Source: an uncultured Sulfuricurvum sp.
GTDB taxonomy: Bacteria; Campylobacterota; Campylobacteria; Campylobacterales; Sulfurimonadaceae
Direction of reading: 5' to 3'
DNA length: 64,000 bases
NCBI GenBank assembly: GCA_903844635.1
Contig: CAIMUF010000059.1
Span: forward strand, 1-64,000
Below are positions 4,924-26,423 of the stretch, piece by piece (within the stretch, counting starts at the first letter, position 1; each line of letters begins with the position of its first letter). The notes below the pieces were generated by a model. It saw nothing but the letters and a program-made list of their open reading frames with translations. It was not told the DNA's origin and made no database searches. Made by a program: the position numbers and the translations under genes.

Positions 4924-4997
4924 AAACGCGAAAGGAATAAAATCCCTTTCACTACGCTTGCCGCTTGGGCTGCTAAAGCTAGCCTCCAACGAGGCAG
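4924..4997 (+). repeat. Dispersed structured intergenic repeat, copy 1
   Basis: This 74-bp element lies between tkt and the TrmH gene, three bases from the tkt stop. About three quarters of it matches a second copy at 19793-19863 on the other strand. It folds into three small stem-loops: GAAAGG/CCTTTC (4930-4950), GCC/GGC (4960-4970) and GCCTC/GAGGC (4982-4995). Two stem pairs differ between the copies but still pair, so selection on structure is likely. It may be a REP- or MITE-like element. Confidence 0.7.
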
Positions 4998-5000
4998 AAT

Positions 5001-6917
5001 TTAAATCTTTGATGCAATTGCTTCTGCAGTAAATCCAAAATATTTAAAAAGCTGATCAGCAGGTGCGCTTGCACCAAAGCTGTCCATTGCAATCACCGTA
5101 TCCGCAAATCGGTACCACTCTAATCCTCGAGCTGCTTCAATAGCAACTTTTTTTGTACTTGGTTTGATAATGGAATCAATGTAGCTTTGAGACTGTTCAA
5201 GTAGTAAATCAAAACATGGTACACTGACAATATTCGCAATCAATCCACGCTCACGTAGTTCTTTTGCTGTCTCAATTGCAAGAGAAACTTCAGACCCAGA
5301 AGCCATTAATGTAACCGTTGCATTAGCCTCTTCGATAAGTAAATAGCCTCCATTTTCAACATCGCCCAAAATAGGTGGTGATAATACAGGAAGGTTTTGG
5401 CGTGAACATACAAATGCACTTGGAGAATTTTTCATCGTCAATGCTTTTTGCCATGATTTGACATTCTCTGCTCCATCGGCAGGACGGTAGACGTAAAAAT
5501 TTGGTAAGGCACGAAATTGACTCAAATGTTCAATCGGCTGATGCGTAGGGCCATCTTCACCCACCCCGATACTGTCATGCGTCCAAATAAAGAACTGTTG
5601 AATTCCGGCAAGCGCTGCAATACGGGCAGAGGGTTTAAGATAATCGCTAAAGACAAAGAATGTCGCGCTAAACGGAAGTATTGGGCCATACAATGCCATC
5701 GCATTCGTAATCGATGCCATTGCGTGTTCACGAATCCCAAAATGGATATTTTTCCCTTTTGGAAACTCGCCCATATTGGTGAGCTCCGTTTTATTCGACG
5801 GAGCCAAATCTGCCGATCCTCCCAAAAACCCTGGGATTGCTTTGGCAATAGCATTTAGAATCACGCCATTGGTGTTACGCGTTGCATCCGCTTTTTCAAA
5901 TGTAGGCCAAGCAATTCGACTAAAATCAGGATTAAGAAGCTGTTCATACGCTTTATTTTGTTCCATTAACGGCAATTCTTTGAGGCGATGATTCCATTCT
6001 CGCTCTGCCAAGTCCCCTTTTTCAATTCCACAACGGAAACGCTCTAGCACATCAGCGTCTACTGCAAATGTTGCTTCCGGATCAAAACTAGCCACACGTT
6101 TCGCCTCTTTGATAATATCATGACCCAAAGGTGCACCGTGCGCATGATGAGACCCTTCAAGTTTTCCGGCACCCTTCGCAATAACGGTATTGGCAATAAT
6201 AAGTACAGGGCGTTCAATAAGTTTGGCTTGCGCAAAGGCACCATCAATCTCATCAAAATTATGTCCGTCTATCTCTAAAACCGCCCAGTTTTGGGACTCA
6301 AAACGATCTCGAATATTTTCACTCAAACTAAGTTCGGTTGAACCCTCAATCGTAATACGATTTGAATCATAAATAAGGATTAAATTATCAAGCCCCATAT
6401 GTCCTGCAATCGAACATGCTTCATAGCTGATACCTTCCTCTAGATCACCATCACCGCACAAACAATAAACACTGTGATCAATCATACTTGCAGTTTCAGA
6501 GTTTACTTTGTGCCCTACAAATTTCGATGCCATCGCAAATCCGACCGCATTGGCAATTCCTTGTCCCAATGGTCCTGTCGTAATCTCAATCCCAGCAGTA
6601 TGCGCATATTCAGGATGACCTGGAGTTTTAGAATGAAGCTGACGAAACTGTTTGAGATCCTCAATTTCTAAGCCATATCCCCACAAATAATTAAGTGAAT
6701 AAATGAGCCCAGTACCGTGCCCTCCTGAAAAGACTAAACGGTCACGGTTAAGCCATTTTGGATTACGCGGGTTATGATTCAGATACTCTGATAGGACTAC
6801 TGCTATATCAGCTAGCCCCATTGGCGCACCTGGGTGACCTGAATTGGCTTGCTGAACCATATCAGCAGCTAGAAATCGGATTGTATCTGCCATTTTTTGG
6901 CGCATTGCATTGCTCAT
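5001..6917 (-). CDS. tkt: Transketolase
   Basis: This 638-residue protein has the transketolase architecture: an N-terminal thiamine diphosphate domain with HPGHPE and the GDGDLEEG metal/cofactor motif, a pyrimidine-binding domain with GIREHAM and GPTHQPIEHL, and a C-terminal domain. It moves two-carbon units between sugar phosphates in the non-oxidative pentose phosphate pathway. The ATG has AAGGAA upstream. It follows ispA by three bases, a pairing also known in Campylobacter, so the two should be cotranscribed. Confidence 0.97.
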   Translation of the reverse strand: MSNAMRQKMADTIRFLAADMVQQANSGHPGAPMGLADIAVVLSEYLNHNPRNPKWLNRDRLVFSGGHGTGLIYSLNYLWGYGLEIEDLKQFRQLHSKTPGHPEYAHTAGIEITTGPLGQGIANAVGFAMASKFVGHKVNSETASMIDHSVYCLCGDGDLEEGISYEACSIAGHMGLDNLILIYDSNRITIEGSTELSLSENIRDRFESQNWAVLEIDGHNFDEIDGAFAQAKLIERPVLIIANTVIAKGAGKLEGSHHAHGAPLGHDIIKEAKRVASFDPEATFAVDADVLERFRCGIEKGDLAEREWNHRLKELPLMEQNKAYEQLLNPDFSRIAWPTFEKADATRNTNGVILNAIAKAIPGFLGGSADLAPSNKTELTNMGEFPKGKNIHFGIREHAMASITNAMALYGPILPFSATFFVFSDYLKPSARIAALAGIQQFFIWTHDSIGVGEDGPTHQPIEHLSQFRALPNFYVYRPADGAENVKSWQKALTMKNSPSAFVCSRQNLPVLSPPILGDVENGGYLLIEEANATVTLMASGSEVSLAIETAKELRERGLIANIVSVPCFDLLLEQSQSYIDSIIKPSTKKVAIEAARGLEWYRFADTVIAMDSFGASAPADQLFKYFGFTAEAIASKI

Positions 6918-11337: not shown

Positions 11338-11430
11338 GAGATCTCCTACTTTTATTTTTATACGTGGTAAGAATTTAATTCCTTCCCTACGTTAACACTG
11401 GGATTACTTTAATAGTAAACCCAAGGCTGC

Positions 11431-12426
11431 TTATTCAGCTTCTATTTTCTTTTTGATTGCACTGACTAAATCATCTGCAAGCTCTTGTCCAACAGCATAA
11501 CCGAATTCAGTAATTTTTTCTAAAATTTCTTCAAACGATTTTTTACCGAGGTTTTTAACTTCTTTCAAATCATTTTGGCTCATCATAACGATTTCACCAA
11601 TGTATTTGATATTTGAACGGTCCAAGCAGTTAAAGCTACGTGCGCTTAATCCAAGCTCTTCAATACGTGCACCTAAACGTTTAAGTTCAGGATGTTCGTC
11701 ATTACGTTCAACCGTTGGATTGGCTGATTTGATACTCACTTCACTGTTAAAAACAGCCATTTGAGCGTACATAACATCCAAAGCATTTTTAAATGCATCC
11801 ACTGGAGAAATTTGTCCATCCGTGACGATGTTGATGATTACTTTTTCAAAATTTGGATTATCTTCCACAAGAACATTGTCAATTGCGTATGTCGCACGAC
11901 GAACTGGTGTAAAATAAGCATCCAAAGCGATGTAACCATCACCCAGCAATTCACGAATATCTTCACTTGCAACATATCCGATACCTTGGTAAATTTTGAT
12001 TGAAAAATTTAGTGTTGCATCTTCATTTAATGTTGCTAAAAATTCATTTGGAGTAACGATTTCAACATCGTCATTTTCCAAATCACTGCCGTGAATTTCG
12101 CAAGGGCCTGCAAAAGTATAAGCAATCTCTTTTTCTTTAAGACCGTTTTTTAATTTAAAACGAATCCCTTTGAGGTTGATAATAAAATCTGAAATATCTT
12201 CAAGCATACCGCGCACAGAGTCAAACTCATGCTTAGCACCCTCGATTTTAATCCCGATTGGAGCAAACCCAACTGAGCTGCTTAACAAAAAGCGGCGAAT
12301 CGGGTGAGCAATCGAAACCGCATATCCTGTTTCAAATGGATACGCAATAATATTCGCTTCATTCGCGCTGATTTGTTCAACGACAAACTCTTTTGGTAGA
12401 AGCGGAGAAGTTTTAATTTTTTTCAT
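11431..12426 (-). CDS. rpoA: RNA polymerase alpha subunit
   Basis: This 331-residue protein has the N-terminal assembly domain (residues 1-230) and a C-terminal domain with the [11 protein letters not shown] and [15 protein letters not shown] helices. In other bacteria the C-terminal domain contacts UP elements and activators. The expected order rpsM, rpsK, rpsD, rpoA, rplQ is intact. A short GCTG/CAGC stem around the stop codon is visible but weak. Confidence 0.98.
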
Positions 12427-17449: not shown

Positions 17450-18285
17450 TACCAGCTACTTCCCTTGTTTTTAATCTTAAATTCTTCCGCTGTGAGCTGT
17501 TGAAGAGATCCATTTTCATACGTAAACCACACGGTATTTCTCTCTTTTAGTATTTTACTGCCGGAAGAAGTCACTATCTCTAAACGACCATGTCCAAAAA
17601 TAAAAAGCCAACTTTTAGTACTATCAATTAAAATAGGATCTTTCGTTACTTTTTGAATTTTTTTCCCTGTTTCTAAATCCATCATTCCTACCCATACTTT
17701 AGAAGAAGGTTTAATGCTTAGAACATTATAAAAACTCAAAGCTTTGCCCTCTGGGTCCAAAGTAGCCATACTCTTATTTTGTTCTTGCATGAGTTGTGTT
17801 GTATTGATTTCGGTAATATTCATGTCATTGGTCGCATTCACATCACTTGTATTCATTTCACTAAAGTTAGTATCAACCACTTCAATGGCTGCACTGCTTA
17901 ACTCTAGAACCTCTTCTTTAGGGGCGACACTAAGTTCTCCTTGCATCATCGAACCTAATAGCATTAAGATTACGATTACACCAATAGCACCAAAAATCCA
18001 AAACGTACGTGTATTTGAAGAGGCCTGTAAAACAGCGGATGGTTTTGAAATCGCCATCTCAGGATCAAAACCTTTGTAAGAATCATATTCACTTCTCAGC
18101 GATTCAAGATTAACCCCGTATTCACGCTCCAAAATAGAAATAAATCCCATAAATTGAACACGATTTAATTGATCAAAAGATTTATCTAATACCTGTTCAA
18201 CTTTAACTCGTGAAATATGCGTGCGCTCATGAATACTGTTTGCCCCAAGCTCTTGCAAATCTTCAAAGGACTTTATCGTACTCAT
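17449..18285 (-). CDS. RodZ-like bitopic membrane protein
   Basis: This 278-residue protein has an N-terminal cytoplasmic helical domain (1-75), one membrane segment near residues 92-114 (FWIFGAIGVIVILMLLGSMM), a low-complexity Asn/Thr linker and a C-terminal beta domain (about 190-270). The stretch THISRVKVEQVL then FDQLNRVQFMGFISI resembles the RodZ helix-turn-helix that binds MreB. The end (WVGMMDLETGKK, FIFGHGRLEI) resembles its periplasmic domain. A role in cell shape is inference. It overlaps the methyltransferase gene upstream by four bases. Confidence 0.65.
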   Translation of the reverse strand: MSTIKSFEDLQELGANSIHERTHISRVKVEQVLDKSFDQLNRVQFMGFISILEREYGVNLESLRSEYDSYKGFDPEMAISKPSAVLQASSNTRTFWIFGAIGVIVILMLLGSMMQGELSVAPKEEVLELSSAAIEVVDTNFSEMNTSDVNATNDMNITEINTTQLMQEQNKSMATLDPEGKALSFYNVLSIKPSSKVWVGMMDLETGKKIQKVTKDPILIDSTKSWLFIFGHGRLEIVTSSGSKILKERNTVWFTYENGSLQQLTAEEFKIKNKGSSW

Positions 18286-18959
18286 CGCATTCTCTCCATT
18301 AAAATTGCCCCGGCTACTCCCACATTAAGTGAATCAAAATCATGTGCCATCTCAATGAATACACCATGGTCAAGCCCTTTTTCAACACGACCGCTCAGAC
18401 CCTCGCCCTCACTGCCTAAAATCAAAGCACGCTTGGAATCAAAGCTCATCTCACGTACGTTTTTACCCTCAAGCGTTGCACCATAGAGAGTAAATCCTGA
18501 CTGTTTAAGCTCATGCATAACATCATGGATATTATGGACAACGACGATAGGCAAGTCTAGTGCTGCCCCGCTGCTCGTTCGAATTAACGCTTCCAAATTT
18601 GGTTCTCGGATACCGGTAATTACAAGGGCTTCTACTCCAAGAGCATACGCACTTCGCACCAGTGAACCCATGTTTCCCATATCGGTAATAGAGCTTAGCA
18701 CGACAATAAAACCACATTTTTTCAAAAAAGGAGAAGCATAAGGGACGATTTGAGAAATCTCAGCAATGTACCCTTGATGATTTCCGCCTTTTACCATCGA
18801 TTGAGCTGCAATCTCTGGAATTCGCTTAATCTCAAATCCCATTTTCATCAATTGGCCATATTCTTTTTTATCAATCTCTTTGGCAAGATAGAGTGTTTTT
18901 ATCCGATCACGATGTCGTTCAAGTGCATAAAATACTGGTTGTTTTCCGTAAATGAGCAT
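18282..18959 (-). CDS. TrmH family RNA 2'-O-methyltransferase (RlmB-like)
   Basis: The 225-residue protein begins MLIYGKQPVFYAL, as in RlmB, and has SpoU motifs ITDMGNMGSLVRSAYALG, LGSEGEGLS and MAHDFDSLNVGVAGAILM. RlmB methylates G2251 of 23S rRNA in E. coli; that target here is inferred. It lies in a row of rRNA-modification genes with rsmI and rsmE. Confidence 0.88.
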   Translation of the reverse strand: MLIYGKQPVFYALERHRDRIKTLYLAKEIDKKEYGQLMKMGFEIKRIPEIAAQSMVKGGNHQGYIAEISQIVPYASPFLKKCGFIVVLSSITDMGNMGSLVRSAYALGVEALVITGIREPNLEALIRTSSGAALDLPIVVVHNIHDVMHELKQSGFTLYGATLEGKNVREMSFDSKRALILGSEGEGLSGRVEKGLDHGVFIEMAHDFDSLNVGVAGAILMERMR

Positions 18960-18969
18960 AAAATTATCC

Positions 18970-19779
18970 TTATAAGTTTAAGAGGCGTGTATAGCACTCT
19001 TTTGGGTTTTCGCCGGTAATTTTGGCGATGAGCTTGGATGCCGCTTTTTTAGGTATATCAAGAGCTAAGATATCTGCCTCATTCAAACTTGCACCGCAAG
19101 AAGCTGAAGCTTCGATAACCACGACCCATTCACCCCGAATCTCCCCTTCCATCTTAGAGAGGAGTTCAGAAGCAGTCCCTTGATAAAAACGCTGATATTT
19201 TTTAGTAATCTCTTTGGCCAAAAATACTCGACGTACCGGTGCCGAAACGACAAGTTCATGGAGTAGTTTATCCAAACGCTTGGGAGATTCATAGAGCACG
19301 GTAGTATAGCCGTTAAAGAGAGCCTCTTGAAGCGCAGCGGAACGATCATTGCCTTTGTGCGGTAAAAATCCGAAAAAGAGCATTTTTGTCTCACAAAAGC
19401 CACTCGCAACGAATGCACTGAGCACAGCATTAGCGCCCGGTAAAATGTCATATTTTACCGCATTATCCAAACAATACCGGACTAATAATTGTCCTGGATC
19501 ACTAATCCCAGGCATTCCCGCATCACTGACATACAGTACATTAGCATTAAAAAAATCGGGAGTTAGTTTGGAAACAAATTCTGCTTCATTGTGAGAATGG
19601 AGACTTAAAAACTGTGGTTCACTTGTAGTGAGATTATGACGTTCTTTGAGTAAGTGTATAAGTTTTTTAGTGACACGAGTATCTTCACACAAAATTATAT
19701 CAGCAGTAGAGAGAACTTCAAGGGAACGAATGGAGATGTCGGAAATATTCCCGATAGGAGTGGGTACGAGAGATAACAC
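18970..19779 (-). CDS. rsmI: 16S rRNA C1402 2'-O-methyltransferase
   Basis: This is a tetrapyrrole-methylase-fold protein with LVPTPIGN near the start, CEDTRVTKKLIHLL, SDAGMPGISDPG and YESPKRLDKLL, all RsmI hallmarks. I place the start at GTG 19777-19779 with AAGAGG upstream. The longer TTG reading to 19809 would run into the repeat at 19793-19863. It modifies the ribosomal P-site nucleotide C1402 together with RsmH. Confidence 0.92.
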   Translation of the reverse strand: MLSLVPTPIGNISDISIRSLEVLSTADIILCEDTRVTKKLIHLLKERHNLTTSEPQFLSLHSHNEAEFVSKLTPDFFNANVLYVSDAGMPGISDPGQLLVRYCLDNAVKYDILPGANAVLSAFVASGFCETKMLFFGFLPHKGNDRSAALQEALFNGYTTVLYESPKRLDKLLHELVVSAPVRRVFLAKEITKKYQRFYQGTASELLSKMEGEIRGEWVVVIEASASCGASLNEADILALDIPKKAASKLIAKITGENPKECYTRLLNL

Positions 19780-19792
19780 AATGCCTCTTAAT

Positions 19793-19863
19793 CTGCTTCG
19801 CAGAAGCAAGCTTTAGTGCCTTAGCGGCAAGCGTAGCTAAAGGGATGAATTCCTTTAGCGTTT
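19793..19863 (-). repeat. Dispersed structured intergenic repeat, copy 2
   Basis: This 71-bp partner of the element at 4924-4997 lies on the opposite strand, between rpmE and rsmI and four bases from the rpmE stop. It has stems CTAAAGG/CCTTTAG (19837-19858), TGCC/GGCA (19817-19829) and GCTTC/GAAGC (19795-19807). The stems pair in both copies despite base changes. Confidence 0.7.
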
Positions 19864-19866
19864 CAA

Positions 19867-20070
19867 TTATGCATTAAGCGCGTAACGTTTTTTGAACTTG
19901 TCGATACGTCCAGCAGTGTCTACTTGGCGCTCAGAACCAGTGTAAAACGGGTGACATTCATTACAAATATCAACACGGAAAGCACTTTTTGTGCTTTTTG
20001 TTGTAAATGTGTTACCGCATGCGCAGCTAACAGTACATTCAACAGTATTAGGGTGAAGCTCTTTTTTCAT
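19867..20070 (-). CDS. rpmE: Ribosomal protein L31
   Basis: The 67-residue protein MKKELHPNT... has CACG and [10 protein letters not shown], the zinc-binding C+ form of L31. The start at 20070 is chosen because AAGG lies seven bases upstream and the L31 family begins there. An upstream in-frame extension to 20127 lacks support. Confidence 0.95.
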
Positions 20071-20176
20071 AATATTACCTTGTGAGTGACGGCGTTGTAC
20101 GTCAATCGGTTTGAGTTTTACATCCATACCTGGGGACGGATTGTTGGACGCGAATTATATCCAAAACATTTTAAAT

Positions 20177-20845
20177 TTACAACCTCATCGAAGCGATAGC
20201 CACCGCTGCGGTCTCAGAGCGTAAAATCATCGGCAAGTTAAAATGACGGATACGGTGTGAATTACACGATTTACGTTCATTCTCATCAAAGCCCCCCTCA
20301 CATCCAATCACCACGGTTTCAAAATTCTCATTTTGATCCAAAGCTTCTCCGCCAAAATCAAGAACAACCGCTTCGGGATTTGTATTTAAAAACGTACTGA
20401 GTGCGGGAATCTCAGAAAGTTCTATAAAAGAAGTCCGCCCGCATTGCATCATAGCGCTTTCCATAATCCGATTAAAACGCTCAAAATCAAGTCTAAAATT
20501 TCGTTGTGACCGCTTGCAATGAATAAACGTGATTTTTGAAACACCAAGTTCCATCAACATAGGCAAGGTTTTTTCAATCGTTTTTGGATCAACAATACAC
20601 CATCCGATATGAAGCTTTTTAGATGCTTCGCACGGTGAATTTAGTGAACTTTCACGTATAAAATAAGCATTGCGTCCATCGGTTTTCTCTAAACGATAAT
20701 GATGAGAGATGTTTAACGTATCACGATGACGAAAAACAATCAGATCACCCACTACGTGACGACGAACTTTGATGAGATATTTGTACTCTTCTCCTGAAAC
20801 AGCCAGTTCCTCTGAACCTGCCTGTGTATGAAGAACGAATTTCAT
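20177..20845 (-). CDS. rsmE: 16S rRNA m3U1498 methyltransferase
   Basis: This SPOUT-class protein of 222 residues has the N-terminal PUA-like part and the C-terminal motifs KRSQRNF, VVIGCEGGFDENE and LPMILRSETAAVAIA typical of RsmE. The ATG at 20843-20845 overlaps the upstream TGA by four bases. RsmE methylates U1498 of 16S rRNA in the decoding centre. Confidence 0.93.
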   Translation of the reverse strand: MKFVLHTQAGSEELAVSGEEYKYLIKVRRHVVGDLIVFRHRDTLNISHHYRLEKTDGRNAYFIRESSLNSPCEASKKLHIGWCIVDPKTIEKTLPMLMELGVSKITFIHCKRSQRNFRLDFERFNRIMESAMMQCGRTSFIELSEIPALSTFLNTNPEAVVLDFGGEALDQNENFETVVIGCEGGFDENERKSCNSHRIRHFNLPMILRSETAAVAIASMRL

Positions 20846-21252
20846 ACCATCATCCAAAGTGTTACACTTAGTAATAACACCATCTCTATTCCCAAATAAC
20901 GGAAAGCTTTACGTTTATATAAAGCGAATGCCCCTTCTTGGGTAATATCTGTACGACGCTTGAGAGTCTTATACCGCTTAGCTTCCAAAACAATCATCAC
21001 TATACCCACAACAATCATTGCGTCATTGGCAAGCGTAAAATGTAAATGTTTTGCCGCCATCATAATCATTCCCGTCAAAAGAATCAATGCGATCAACGAT
21101 GACGAGATCGGCATCACAATTCGCATCCGTTTGGCATAACGAATAACCTGATTACTTAAAGCAAGCATCATAATGTTAAACATCACCACTCCCATTAAAA
21201 CAATAACTCCGACCGTGTGGATTTCTAATCCCATTGTGTACATAGCTTCCAT
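20842..21252 (-). CDS. Small integral membrane protein
   Basis: This 136-residue protein has four predicted membrane helices (around 12-32, 48-67, 72-88 and 115-135) and a basic loop KRYKTLKRR. No motif for a known transporter or enzyme was seen. It is coupled to rsmE by a four-base overlap and is conserved next to it in Campylobacter, as I recall. Function unknown. Confidence 0.75.
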   Translation of the reverse strand: MEAMYTMGLEIHTVGVIVLMGVVMFNIMMLALSNQVIRYAKRMRIVMPISSSLIALILLTGMIMMAAKHLHFTLANDAMIVVGIVMIVLEAKRYKTLKRRTDITQEGAFALYKRKAFRYLGIEMVLLLSVTLWMMV

Positions 21253-21311
21253 AAAGGAGATTTTACCCTATTTTGTCTATAATGACTTAAAACGTGGCAA
21301 GGGAGTTATAC

Positions 21312-22529
21312 ATGGCAGTAACCGTTGAAGAGGCTTTAGCACTTATTTACGCGCATGCTCACCCTCTTGGAAGTGAAATCATACCTATTGAAAATGCCCT
21401 GAGCCGAGTATTGGGTGAAGAAATTATAGCTGCCCTCTGCCTCCCTCCGTATGATAATTCCGCTATGGACGGATACGCTGTTACGATCAGTGATGCGGGT
21501 AAAACTCTGCCTCAATCGTGCATCATCTTCGCAGGGGATAAAGACGATATTCGTATGGTGGAAGATCAATGCATCCGTATTATGACCGGTGCAAAGATCC
21601 CTCAAGGATGTGAAGCCATCGTTCCTATAGAAGAAGTGACCCTCATAGACAACAACGTCACACTTCCCTCTTCTATCAAAGCGTCTCAGCACATACGCCT
21701 CAAAGGTGAAGACATTCAAGCTGGCACATTACTCCTCAAAAGCGGAACACTGCTTCATGCCCATCATCTCACGTTGCTTGCCTCTCAAGGACGTACTCAC
21801 CTGCGGGCTTTCAGATCACCGCGTGTTGCATTGTTTGCTTCAGGAAATGAGCTTAAAATGCATTTTGAGGCGATTGAATCCCATCAGCTTTACAATACCA
21901 ATACCCCAACCTTCGCAGCACGTGCACGTGAACTTGGATGTGATGTCATTTTTACAGGAACAGCTGAGGACACCATGGAGAGCATTCAAAGCCATATTAA
22001 AAGCGCCCTTGATGCCAATTTTATAATCACTTCTGGTGGGGTCAGTGTTGGAGATGCCGATTATACTAAAGAGGCGTTTAGCACTCTTGGGATGGAAACA
22101 CTCTTTGAATCGGTTGAAATCAAACCCGGGAAGCCAACGACCTTTGGTCGCATCGGGTCTACCCTCATTCTCAATCTTCCCGGAAATCCGCTTGCTGCCG
22201 CATTGTGTTTTGAACTCTTTGGTCAAAGTACGATTATGGCACTTAGCGGTCAAAGTGATAAATATATCAGCACCATCACCACAAAAATGGGAGAGCCTTT
22301 CACAATGAAAAAAGGTCGACGCTCACTCATCCCTGGCTGGTTTGATGGAGCCGCATTTACCCCATCCCTTGTTTTTGGACCGGGAATGATACTCCCGTTA
22401 TCTCGAGCAAATGGCTTTATGATGGTGGATGCAAAGGTGGAGGGATTTAAAGAGGGAGATGAAGTAAAAATCATCCCCACACGATGGTGTATGAGTGCAG
22501 AAAATCAAACGTCGTTAGTGACGTTTTAA
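21312..22529 (+). CDS. moeA: Molybdopterin molybdenumtransferase
   Basis: This 405-residue protein has MoeA domains in order: PPYDNSAMDGYAV near residue 50, a molybdopterin-binding core with TSGGVSVGDADYTKE, and a C-terminal barrel with LPGNPLAAALCF between them. It inserts molybdate into adenylated molybdopterin. The ATG at 21312 has AAGGGAG six bases upstream. It is divergent from the membrane-protein gene and convergent with queD, overlapping by four bases. Confidence 0.95.
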   Translation: MAVTVEEALALIYAHAHPLGSEIIPIENALSRVLGEEIIAALCLPPYDNSAMDGYAVTISDAGKTLPQSCIIFAGDKDDIRMVEDQCIRIMTGAKIPQGCEAIVPIEEVTLIDNNVTLPSSIKASQHIRLKGEDIQAGTLLLKSGTLLHAHHLTLLASQGRTHLRAFRSPRVALFASGNELKMHFEAIESHQLYNTNTPTFAARARELGCDVIFTGTAEDTMESIQSHIKSALDANFIITSGGVSVGDADYTKEAFSTLGMETLFESVEIKPGKPTTFGRIGSTLILNLPGNPLAAALCFELFGQSTIMALSGQSDKYISTITTKMGEPFTMKKGRRSLIPGWFDGAAFTPSLVFGPGMILPLSRANGFMMVDAKVEGFKEGDEVKIIPTRWCMSAENQTSLVTF

Positions 22530-23107
22530 ACGGTTGTTGGATTGGTAAACCCTTCGCCGCTTTTAACTCTCTCCCACAACTTGGGATCATTCCATTCCTG
22601 ACATATTTCATCGCTAAAATAGATTTTATCGAGATCAATCAGTCCCATAATATCTGAATAAGCATCTTCACGAAAACATTGTGCGTATCCCGTCTCTGTT
22701 TCATGAACGATGATACTGCTAAGACGCACCATTTTTTCACCGTTAACCGTTTTGGTAAACCACATCAATTTATCAATCATCACAAAAATCACGCGGCTAA
22801 ACTGCTCAGCAGAGGGGGAAACAGGTAGCTGAACCCAACGCTGCGAATGACGTTTCATATCAGCAATATATGCTTCATCATCTCCATCCCAAAGAGCAAT
22901 AGAGTGATCAAAACTGTCTATCAGTTCTTTCATCCCCTGCTTCATCAATCCAAAATCGTACACCATCTGACCATTATCAAGATACTGCGATTCAAACAGC
23001 ACTTCCACTTTATACGAGTGCCCATGAAGCGATGCGCGACAACGCTGTGTAGAACAGCCACGAACGATATGGGCATTTTCAAATTTGAATGACTTTCTGA
23101 TTATCAT
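22526..23107 (-). CDS. queD: 6-carboxytetrahydropterin synthase
   Basis: This 193-residue member of the 6-pyruvoyl-tetrahydropterin synthase family has zinc-ligand histidines in ENAH and HGHSYKVEV, and the catalytic region FDHSIALWDGDD. QueD makes carboxytetrahydropterin from dihydroneopterin triphosphate, the second step to queuosine. It lies three bases after queE, the enzyme for the next step. It is longer than the 120-residue E. coli enzyme, which is common in this phylum. Confidence 0.93.
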   Translation of the reverse strand: MIIRKSFKFENAHIVRGCSTQRCRASLHGHSYKVEVLFESQYLDNGQMVYDFGLMKQGMKELIDSFDHSIALWDGDDEAYIADMKRHSQRWVQLPVSPSAEQFSRVIFVMIDKLMWFTKTVNGEKMVRLSSIIVHETETGYAQCFREDAYSDIMGLIDLDKIYFSDEICQEWNDPKLWERVKSGEGFTNPTTV

Positions 23108-23110
23108 TGA

Positions 23111-23869
23111 TTACACTCCATGGTTTTGATCCCAAATGCGGATATGCAAACGGTCACTGTAAATAAATCCTCGCCGTTTGCAAAACTCGATGACGGCTTC
23201 GCAGTTGGCTTCGATGTGGGCTTTATCTCCACCAAGTGGCATGCAGTAGACGCCAGTATAAGGGTGAGGAGCGATAATCGTATCCATTTCCTCTTCCAAA
23301 ACACTGACCAAAGAGGGTTCATCGACGCTGAACTTAAAAAAACTCCCGTTTGCGTTGGCAATAATAGAAGCGATTACCTCATTTTTGTATCGTCGATCTA
23401 TCGGTTCACCGCTGTTTGAAAGTTTTACCGATAACGCATAAATGGCTTCTTTGTAAAAAGGATATTTCACAAAATCAGGCGCAATTGTTGCATTGGTTTC
23501 GAACGTTACTCGATGACCCTGCGAAATCAAATAATCAATAAACTCTAGAAAAATCGGTTCATTGGCATAAATTAGAGGTTCACCACCTGTCAAAACAACA
23601 TCGACATGAGGGGGAAGTTTGTAGCCGTTCATAATCCATATCAGAGTTTGAAGCTCTTCGACTTCCATCCACAAATCACCAAATCCCTTACGATCTACGG
23701 CATACACCGTATCGCATCCGATAATTTCGCGTCCATCAGGAGTTATTTCACTGCATCCAAATCCCTCACACTTGAGGTTACATCCACCAAAACGGAAAAA
23801 GAGAGAGGGAGTACCTACGTATTTCCCCTCGCCTTGCACGGAGTAAAAATGTTCTACTAAATATAACAT
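23111..23869 (-). CDS. queE: 7-carboxy-7-deazaguanine synthase (radical SAM)
   Basis: This 252-residue QueE has the SVQGEGKYVGTPS substrate motif and LTGGEPLIYAN. The iron-sulfur cysteines are C30, C34 and probably C52 (GCDT), so 17 residues separate the second and third instead of the usual two. A further Cys lies at 39. Campylobacter QueE as I recall shares this insertion. It forms the deazaguanine ring for queuosine. A duplicated start region lies just upstream (see 23844-23997). Confidence 0.92.
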   Translation of the reverse strand: MLYLVEHFYSVQGEGKYVGTPSLFFRFGGCNLKCEGFGCSEITPDGREIIGCDTVYAVDRKGFGDLWMEVEELQTLIWIMNGYKLPPHVDVVLTGGEPLIYANEPIFLEFIDYLISQGHRVTFETNATIAPDFVKYPFYKEAIYALSVKLSNSGEPIDRRYKNEVIASIIANANGSFFKFSVDEPSLVSVLEEEMDTIIAPHPYTGVYCMPLGGDKAHIEANCEAVIEFCKRRGFIYSDRLHIRIWDQNHGV

Positions 23870-23997
23870 TTTAGCTCCGTCGAAAGCGTAGCTTTTTGAG
23901 CCTTGCGTCCAGCAAAACCCAGTGTTAACGTAGACGTTTGGACGCGTTCAAATGTCGTTTTATAATGGTCATAAAAATGTTCAACTAAATAGAGCAT
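23844..23997 (-). repeat. Partial duplication of the queE start region
   Basis: The first 26 bases of queE (23844-23869) recur at 23972-23997 with 23 of 26 identities, giving the same peptide start MLYLVEHFY twice, 128 bases apart. The upstream copy has a perfect AGGAGG ribosome site, the real queE start only a weaker CGGAG. The 102 bases between are unlike neighbouring genes and fold partly (stem 23934-23957). Confidence 0.7.
23857..23997 (-). CDS. Possible 46-residue leader ORF ahead of queE
   Basis: This ORF begins with an ATG behind AGGAGG, starts MLYLVEHFY like queE, then continues into sequence with no relative I know and stops 13 bases inside queE in another frame. It may be translated as a leader, or be only the relic of a queE 5' duplication. 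No function is proposed. Confidence 0.3.
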   Translation of the reverse strand: MLYLVEHFYDHYKTTFERVQTSTLTLGFAGRKAQKATLSTELKCYI

Positions 23998-23998
23998 C

Positions 23999-24964
23999 TC
24001 ACCCTCCTGTCTCATAAAATGCGCGCTTTGAGAGTTCACCGTCAGGATCACTCCAGCGGTTTTTTTCAGGTTTCGTTCGAATGACTTCTTTGAGCACCAA
24101 TGCCGCTTCTTTTATGTCTCCGCGTCGTATTGCATCACGAATACTCATCGCCTCATCAAAATACAAACATGGAATCAAATTTCCCTCGGCAGTCAATCGG
24201 ATGCGATTACACTTTGCACAAAAATCATCTTTATGAGGTTCGATAATCCCAAACTCGTATCCATTTTCAAGTTTATAATAATGCGAAGGTGAGTGCCCGT
24301 CAAATCCCTCATCATTGTAAGAATAACGGCTTCCGATAATCTCTAAAAGCTCACAACTTTGCATCCCTTTAATATCAACCTCAGCATGTACATTTTCCAT
24401 ATATTCGATAAAACGAACCGTCATATTACGCTCTTTGCAGAACTCTAGTACATCCAAAATCTCAGCGTCATTCATCCCTTTCATAGGAACCATATTGACT
24501 TTTACCCGAAACCCCAAACGCAGAGCTTCTTCGACTCCAGACAATACGTGACTTAAAACATCTTTTTTAGCGATTTTTTCTGCAACATCAGGGATAAGAG
24601 AATCAATTGAAACATTTATACGACGAAGTCCTGCATCATACAGTTTCTGTGCAGCGCCTTTTAATAAATACGCATTGGTCGTCATCGCCAAATCAATATC
24701 ACTTTTATAGTCATGAATCATTTTGACAAAACGATCAAGGTCTTCACGTAACAGTGGTTCTCCACCGGTAATACGGATTTTTTTAACGCCTGAATCAATG
24801 GAGATTTTGATAAACTCAAACAGCTCTTCAAAACTAAGTAGATTTTCTTTAGGGACCCACGAGAAAGGCTTTTCAGGCATACAATACTGACATCGAAAAT
24901 TGCATCTTTCCGTTACCGAAACACGTAAATAATCAACTGTTCGGCCATAACTATCTATTAACAC
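23999..24964 (-). CDS. moaA: GTP 3',8-cyclase
   Basis: This 321-residue radical SAM protein has CNFRCQYC near residue 22, a second cluster motif [18 protein letters not shown] near residue 255, and the C-terminal Gly-Gly needed for catalysis. It makes the first molybdopterin intermediate from GTP. The start is GTG with AAGGAT upstream. It heads a minus-strand run moaA, queE, queD, mixing molybdopterin and queuosine genes that both use GTP-derived pterins. Confidence 0.95.
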
Positions 24965-25050
24965 GACTATCCTTGAAAATTCCTATTAAAAGGAGTAATG
25001 CGCGAGTGTATCTAAAAGTAGTTTGGAGTTTTATTTATTGGGAAGATTAG

Positions 25051-25080
25051 CAAAAAGACTCTGCCTCAAAAGAGGTAGAG
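25051..25080 (-). terminator. Rho-independent terminator after the bc1 operon
   Basis: A 9-bp stem (25059-25067 with 25072-25080, one G-U pair) with a 4-base loop is followed on the minus strand by TCTTTTT. It ends transcription of the petABC-cytochrome operon. The rest of the gap 24965-25142 holds nothing else clear. Confidence 0.85.
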
Positions 25081-25142
25081 TGTTACATGTAGAGCCAAAG
25101 AAAGCAATAAATGCTTCTTTTACGTTTAAAATAAAATACGCT

Positions 25143-25538
25143 TTACCAGCCGCGTACGACTGCGTGACATGCCGTACACTCATTCACTATTTCTGAATAA
25201 GATTGGTGCGCTTTAACATATTCTCTTTTATCAAGTGCTTTTAAAAGCGAAGACGAAGCACTATCAATACGCTTAGATGCATTAAAAGCGATGTTGGTCA
25301 TATGTCGCTTTTCTTTCGGCAAATATTTTTTCGTCACATCAGCATTGTGAAAAAGAGCATTTGCTTTTTGAATGTCACTTACTCCCGCTTTAATCAATTC
25401 AGGTGCATTGTATAAGAACCCTTTTTGAATACCGCTCAATCCATGTTCCATTTGACTCATATTGGATACTAAAGTCTCATCTGCCGCCAAACCTGCACTC
25501 AAAAGTGCAGATAAAGCTAAAATTTTTACTATTTTCAT
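25143..25538 (-). CDS. Cytochrome c'-like periplasmic monohaem protein
   Basis: This 131-residue protein has a Sec signal peptide (about residues 1-19), a helical body and a single haem motif CTACH seven residues from the end, as in cytochrome c' and c-556 four-helix bundles. It lies nine bases after petC and before the operon terminator, so it is probably made with the bc1 complex. Electron transfer or ligand binding (NO) are possible roles. Confidence 0.8.
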   Translation of the reverse strand: MKIVKILALSALLSAGLAADETLVSNMSQMEHGLSGIQKGFLYNAPELIKAGVSDIQKANALFHNADVTKKYLPKEKRHMTNIAFNASKRIDSASSSLLKALDKREYVKAHQSYSEIVNECTACHAVVRGW

Positions 25539-25547
25539 TTTTGCTCC

Positions 25548-26423
25548 TTAATGAACTTCTGACCAGATTTTACGTTTCCACAAATATGCCAAAATTGCAA
25601 ATACTAACGTATAAAGCATGACCCAAAGACCAACGCTTTCACGTTCAGATTTTTTAGAATCTCCAACCTCTTCCATGTAAGCGATAACTTCTTCTTGGGC
25701 TTTTTCATTCAAACCAACGCGTGGCATAGATGTTCCTGCCAACAACAATTGAGGATCATTAATAAAGCCATGTAAGTAATGCTCTTTACGACTTTTGATG
25801 TATTGAGACAAATCAGGAGGTGTTGCACCCATATAGGCTTTGATAGCATCTTTTGGTGTTGTCGCTTCAAATTTCGCATAGCTCATTGAGTGACAACGTC
25901 CACATGCTGCATCAAATGTTACTTTATTCACATCTTTCTCTGCCACTTTTGGAGCAACTGACTGAAGATAGGATACAACGTCCATAATCTCTTGAGGTGT
26001 CATCCAGTTGTAAGCAGGCATTGGGAATGCTTTCGCTCCTCCGACTGGATATTTATGACTAAGCTTCATAGCGCTGACAGGATCAAAGATGAAGTTAGCT
26101 AAATAGTTTTTGTCATACATACGTCCAGCCTGACTTAAATCAGGTGGAACAACTCCATACGATGCTGCTGCATCTGCATTTGGCATTAGCGCAGGGTGAC
26201 CTGCCGTTTCTATCGCATGACAAGCGATACAGTTAGCTTCTACAAGGGCTTTACCATTTTCAGTATTGCCTGCTAATGATGTGTCAACATTTTTCAAATC
26301 TTTAAATGTGAAATCTGCCGCTTTTACTTCAGGATGCATAACATGATGAGCATATGGCTCAATTCCGTAATATGTAATACCTACGAGAGCTGCAATAATT
26401 GCTAATATTTTAAACTCTTTCAT
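25548..26423 (-). CDS. petC: Dihaem cytochrome c subunit of the bc1 complex
   Basis: This 291-residue protein has an N-terminal anchor, two haem motifs (CIACH, CGRCH) and a C-terminal membrane helix (VGLWVMLYTLVFAILAYLW). The dihaem form is the epsilonproteobacterial replacement of cytochrome c1. It passes electrons from the Rieske protein to soluble cytochromes and the cbb3 oxidase. It overlaps petB by one base. Confidence 0.94.
   Translation of the reverse strand: MKEFKILAIIAALVGITYYGIEPYAHHVMHPEVKAADFTFKDLKNVDTSLAGNTENGKALVEANCIACHAIETAGHPALMPNADAAASYGVVPPDLSQAGRMYDKNYLANFIFDPVSAMKLSHKYPVGGAKAFPMPAYNWMTPQEIMDVVSYLQSVAPKVAEKDVNKVTFDAACGRCHSMSYAKFEATTPKDAIKAYMGATPPDLSQYIKSRKEHYLHGFINDPQLLLAGTSMPRVGLNEKAQEEVIAYMEEVGDSKKSERESVGLWVMLYTLVFAILAYLWKRKIWSEVH

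Follow-up and report, generated by a model that had tools for sequence, protein, structure and literature searches.

What placed a second copy of the start of queE upstream of the gene's own? In the window, by which we mean the whole 64,000-nucleotide stretch of uncultured Sulfuricurvum sp. DNA analysed here, the first 26 bases of queE (23844-23869) recur at a spacing of 128 as a direct repeat (23972-23997), with 23 of 26 bases identical and MLYLVEHFY encoded by both copies. The coordinates and matches claimed by an earlier, sequence-only reading of this DNA were confirmed, and among 300 dinucleotide-preserving shuffles of 23600-24400 none contained a 26-mer pair with 23 or more matches (best pair at most 20, mean 17.5). 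On the minus strand, moaA (stop at 23999) is followed by a single base, the ATG of copy 1, 102 bases, the ATG of copy 2 (23869), queE, and a queD-like gene (Table 1). We give a probability of roughly 0.78 to the explanation developed below, in which a full-length copy of a REP-like repeat lies within the 5' end of queE and the gene's first 26 bases stand on either side of it; the insert, the relatives that are empty at this site, the repeat family, its covarying hairpins and the duplicated start are all directly observed.

The best NCBIfam matches of the downstream gene are QueE models, the highest score being 52.9 bits relative to a cut-off of 240, and the protein may represent a distinct Campylobacterota type. 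Its queD-like neighbor is encoded on the same strand (queE and queD-like gene together at 22526-23869, minus strand), and as both lie downstream of moaA, molybdopterin and queuosine genes stand here in one run.

Table 1. Features at the moaA-queE junction and copies of the repeat in the window
Feature	Position	Strand	Basis or remark
moaA (GTP 3',8-cyclase)	23999..24964	-	TIGR02666, 350.9 bits (cut-off 284); stop codon 1 nt before the upstream start codon
AGGAGG, strong Shine-Dalgarno within the end of moaA	24003..24008	-	serves queE directly in insert-free genomes, the leader frame here
Copy 1 of queE start, ATGCTCTATTTAGTTGAACATTTTTA	23972..23997	-	direct repeat comparison
46-codon leader frame	23857..23997	-	TAG overlaps queE start; ends 13 nt inside queE
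Insert between the two start copies, 102 nt	23870..23971	-	filled in 8 and empty in 28 of 36 junctions
Repeat copy at queE	23875..23960	-	R1, 72.9 bits; one of the 18 training sequences
Hairpin H3 of queE copy	23933..23956	-	GTAG on the opposite strand at its foot
Near-invariant core CTACGTTAACACTGGG	23918..23933	-	repeat-family alignment
Hairpin H2 of queE copy	23897..23921	-	repeat-family structure
H1 region of queE copy	23873..23893	-	also contains the queE GGAG site (23875-23878)
Copy 2 of queE start, functional, ATGTTATATTTAGTAGAACATTTTTA	23844..23869	-	start common to relatives
queE (radical SAM, 7-carboxy-7-deazaguanine synthase)	23111..23869	-	best NCBIfam matches are QueE models, all under cut-off
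Further repeat copy	11360..11445	+	R1, 44.0 bits
Shortened repeat copy without H2, 63 nt	19801..19863	-	R1, 33.5 bits
Degenerate repeat copy	4924..5009	+	R1, 21.3 bits, E 2.7e-06

Comparison of the moaA-queE junction among relatives establishes the direction of the change. Within 41 genomes of the genus, 38 match queE (all but G009, G014 and G030) and 36 have a readable junction, with G002 and G032 represented by fragments. The insert is present in eight (G000, G036, G028, G023, G035, G003, G022 and G010), and in the other 28 moaA and queE touch or sit a few bases apart. Because this empty junction exists the insert is an addition, and its match to a repeat dispersed throughout the genus further supports the original proposal that the 5' end of queE received an insertion and was locally duplicated. 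The 128-nt period and the open upstream frame are kept in all eight carriers, with no indel among them. A DNA search of the 41 genomes matched the full 102 bases solely at the eight queE starts, while shorter matches were found at many other sites.

What lies at queE is one full-length copy of a REP-like repeat that is folded, tagged with GTAG and dispersed in the genome. In the conserved unit of about 87 positions, GTAG on one strand marks the foot of a hairpin, H3, and the other strand carries the near-invariant core CTACGTTAACACTGGG. The unit also includes a second hairpin, H2, and, at its end, the variable hairpin H1. We trained a covariance model, R1, on 18 copies, the queE insert of the window among them; in this alignment, 11 of 16 pairs show changes on both sides that keep the pairing, a result that none of 500 shuffles equaled on any measure, and sliding the partners by 1-3 columns leaves only 1-4 such pairs. 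CTACG, which is GTAG on the opposite strand, is invariant in 18/18 rows and accompanies the covariation of H3. The model detects about 51 copies in this genome, four of them in the window, as well as between 2 and 64 in each of the 41 genus genomes, and it matches 38 of 120 genomes of the order, this genome counted. Thirty of the 51 own copies were checked with a simple ORF finder, and nearly all of these lie between reading frames.

These results also refine two claims of the sequence-only reading. The folding it proposed for the 102 bases is upheld as structure by covariation across the family but not by energy, as the fold energy of the insert is ordinary (z = -0.61); moreover, covariation inside the eight queE inserts alone is slight (2/24 pairs, a number reached by 228 of 500 shuffles), and for both reasons the case for structure rests on the repeat family. 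Similarly, AGCTACGCTT, which had been taken to link the insert to the dispersed repeat, does occur in both (19829-19838 and 23884-23893), and the two elements are homologous, but for another reason: the motif occupies non-equivalent places, in the H1 region of the queE insert and at the H3/core junction of the 19801-19863 copy, and the true homology is the core, at about 23933-23918. A genome-wide search for the exact H1 stretch, allowing up to three mismatches, returned no site besides the queE copy.

Searched with positions 18000-26000 of the window, Rfam gave no match at gathering level, with two matches far below the gathering scores, and five repeat loci gave no match at all; identity as a riboswitch is unsupported. 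Integron-like attC sites are characterized by a GTTRRRY pattern, to which the repeat is a poor fit. In many copies (e.g., L056, L049 and L060) a T run often follows H1 at the 3' end on the same strand, in the manner of an intrinsic terminator; the run is missing from the queE copy. The papers searched contain no description of the repeat family, a scope that excludes the Figure 1 sequences of PMC3733652, a paper covering Sulfurovum; one of the papers gives only tabulated counts for Sulfurimonas gotlandica. The analysis brings to light a structured repeat family across Campylobacterales that is unmatched in Rfam. As its sites can be compared, filled or empty, among dozens of genomes, the movement of REP-like repeats and any duplications they leave become testable.

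The carriers of the queE insert do not form one clade. Their distribution requires at least six changes on the queE and moaA trees and seven on the rpoB tree, which scores seven carriers and 18 empty genomes and omits this genome, whose rpoB was not found; repeated loss or transfer must therefore have occurred. Mean insert identity between carriers is 88% versus 53% at queE third positions, and identity falls immediately on both sides of the insert (flank comparison with moaA cut at its end motif). An AU test rejects the host topology for the insert (p = 0.017, on 102 columns only and with weak inner support), and the insert topology is rejected overwhelmingly for the host. Two histories remain. 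In one, an old insertion was followed by repeated clean loss between the 26-base repeats, for which recombination or slippage would suffice; in the other, the queE-type copy was transferred. A version of the latter, in which the copy spreads across species as a small site-specific element, by homing or transfer into the queE start and not vertically, is compatible with our main explanation, and we hold it as a tentative possibility. It would account for the scattered carriers, the rejected host topology, the abrupt drop in identity outside the insert and the confinement of the full-length sequence to queE across the 41 genomes; it is weakened by the few alignment columns, by an rpoB tree without this genome and by the failure to identify a recombinase, and repeated precise loss between the direct repeats would produce the same patchiness. 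Elsewhere, at the prfA-dapF junction (L156-L160, around 1440-1590), the repeat lies exactly between the stop codons of convergent genes in five species, where the copies are close to identical despite well-diverged hosts and no direct repeat was seen that could aid loss.

To what extent does the insert affect translation of queE? The upstream start had been credited with the better ribosome site, and this proved correct: AGGAGG (24008-24003) precedes copy 1 and CGGAG (23879-23875) precedes copy 2, with predicted pairing energies of -10.8 and -5.8 kcal/mol, respectively, when computed against an assumed anti-Shine-Dalgarno core. By the same calculation, predicted pairing across the eight carriers ranges from -9.4 to -11.3 kcal/mol for the leader and from -5.6 to -6.1 for queE, and across the 28 empty junctions from -5.3 to -11.2; as seven of the latter, at -5.3 to -6.6, pair about as poorly as the queE site of the carriers, the weak GGAG is unexceptional. 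In the carriers it is the leader frame that now follows the old strong ribosome site, and queE is probably translated from the weaker GGAG as a result. The overlap between the leader stop and the queE start suggests possible termination-reinitiation coupling.

The 46-codon frame itself is most likely a by-product. Variable sites of the insert are spread over leader codon positions 1, 2 and 3 as 11, 9 and 13 among the eight carriers, and pN/pS is 0.62 in the leader frame; it is higher in the two alternative frames (0.82 and 0.84) and far lower in queE (0.14). Given this spread and these ratios, selection on the leader peptide is not strong, yet some maintenance of the open frame may persist. 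Two observations run counter to a simple by-product: the 88% identity exceeds what is expected of a neutral one, and the leader pN/pS lies somewhat below that of the other frames, with the leader open in 8/8 carriers and stops in both other frames in 8/8.

Such observations could indicate that the insert has turned into a cis-regulatory leader, with hairpins and overlapping frame setting queE translation and thereby preserving the similarity across species. The excess of insert identity over queE third positions, the lack of indels, the open frame and the near-invariance of AAAAAGCTACGC and of the GGAG stretch would all fit. We nevertheless consider this role doubtful, as the insert is missing from 28 of 36 genomes, its fold energy is ordinary and no Rfam match reached its gathering score; moreover, dispersed copies at orthologous sites elsewhere, as at the prfA-dapF junction, likewise resemble one another closely, so that likeness is a property of the family and unrelated to queE control. 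Far less probable is an old leader gene whose 46-residue peptide has a function of its own. A strong ribosome site and a frame kept open where the others are closed could be cited in its favor, but the pattern that the sequence-only reading named as arguing for an old gene, one arrangement shared by all relatives with a strongly conserved peptide, is not observed: the arrangement is absent from 28 of 36 junctions, the variable sites are distributed over all codon positions, purifying selection on the peptide is not evident from its pN/pS relative to that of queE, a Pfam search of the peptide gave no match, and the peptide is mostly a reading of the dispersed repeat. An assembly artefact, conceivable in that most genomes used are metagenome assemblies, is refuted by the identical 128-nt arrangement in eight genomes, of which G003 has it on two contigs.

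We thus return to the insertion of a REP-like repeat with duplication of the queE start, for which the following sequence of events can be envisaged. At a touching moaA-queE junction, an insertion would survive only if a queE start were kept on the far side, so that the duplication of the start would date from the insertion or later, and the REP habit of multiplying along with adjacent DNA could have produced it. The by-product frame would now be driven from the strong site that once served queE, and queE would start at copy 2 from the GGAG carried by the insert, its initiation probably aided by ribosomes terminating at the overlapping leader stop. The locus would in this way illustrate how a repeat can enter an operon with touching genes and leave the downstream gene intact, at the price of a second start and of a by-product frame that takes over the old ribosome site. 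Automatic annotation could place the start of queE at the upstream ATG by mistake or enter the 46-residue frame as a protein.

In this genome, duplication is not a habit of the repeat, which counts against our explanation. Among the 30 own-genome copies examined for flanking direct repeats (of 51), queE alone has one (score 17, next best 8); with 1/30, duplication is not a usual trace, and target-site duplication as a general rule was rejected for this genome. In a wider set of 92 elements from several genera, high flanking-repeat scores outside queE belong almost entirely to tandem arrays, apart from chance-level matches and one lone element in G120 (L189) that has a duplicated start. In another family, f4, the arrangement does recur. 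Three of eight genomes of its genus g8 (G120, G043, which has two elements, and G157, which has a diverged copy) carry the element at a gene starting MDFYEKWLEY, with the ribosome site, ATG and first codons of that gene present on either side; in the other five no element was seen. A second g8 gene, starting MKRREAAVAGQFYP, has in one of eight genomes an element array, each element being followed by the gene's ribosome-site region. Tandem or single copies with duplicated gene-start DNA are also seen in other Campylobacterales families (L195, L198, L189, L194, L202, L227 and L245), with periods of about 85-110 nt. A fixed orientation of the repeat toward gene starts, hinted at by the f4 loci, was dropped, as the 30 own copies include 10 in stop/start and 9 in start/stop arrangement.

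We read the duplicated starts as survivorship: where genes touch, only insertions that keep the far-side start are seen. By analogy, a known REP habit may account for both the queE and the f4 cases, because GTAG REPs are described as forming pairs and tandem clusters in which neighboring DNA is repeated along with them (Di Nocera et al. 2013, PMC3733652 section 5). A bolder and unlikely alternative is a Campylobacterales-wide structured repeat that enters gene starts and places a second translation start of the target (ribosome site, first codons or both) on the far side, so that the gene survives. Were this so, recurrence at the same place in several species (queE and one f4 gene) would point to a small non-autonomous element with a start-site preference, whose mobiliser would leave long, variable duplications of about 10-28 nt.

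Finally, we compared the repeat with known families and their mobilisers. IS200/IS605-type transposition is described as leaving no large target duplications; 26 bases are duplicated at queE, and no clear duplication is seen at the other 29 own copies examined. Searches for the Y1 transposase PF01797 gave no match in this genome (96.44% complete) and matches in 19 of the 41 genus genomes, 18 over cut-off, and R1 had 0 matches at the 20 transposase loci searched; absent from this genome and not found beside the repeat, the Y1 transposase was rejected as mobiliser. Copy number, which spans 2 to 64 per genome, does not track the presence of these transposases: G013 has two transposase matches and 2 copies, and 43 and 48 copies occur in G021 and G035, respectively, neither of which has a transposase match. 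RAYT REPs and BIMEs (PMC2817692) share with the repeat the GTAG-hairpin layout and inverted neighboring pairs, such as the copies at C42:5833-5920 (+) and 5954-6040 (-), 33 nt apart in this genome, and differ in their RAYT link, none having been found for the repeat. Rickettsia palindromic elements (PMC3733652 section 15) likewise place a palindromic repeat in a protein-coding region with the open frame kept, but queE is not extended, the repeat lying in a separate upstream frame. The closest resemblance is in layout to GTAG REPs, which, according to PMC3733652, are stem-loops with GTAG at the foot, dispersed between genes, many near stop codons and some in the 5' end of reading frames, with 24 families covered and GTAG repeats named in Sulfurovum sp. 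The repeat shares the tag at the stem-loop foot, dispersed intergenic copies, tandem clusters with flanking DNA and a position in the 5' end of frames; it departs from their 20-40 bp unit in its 87 positions (some copies are shorter, e.g., 63 nt at 19801-19863), its second covarying hairpin and its fixed core. Resembling a GTAG REP in looks and behavior but having a longer, composite unit, and with no Y1 transposase in the genome or beside it, the repeat is not a RAYT REP but a REP-like variant.
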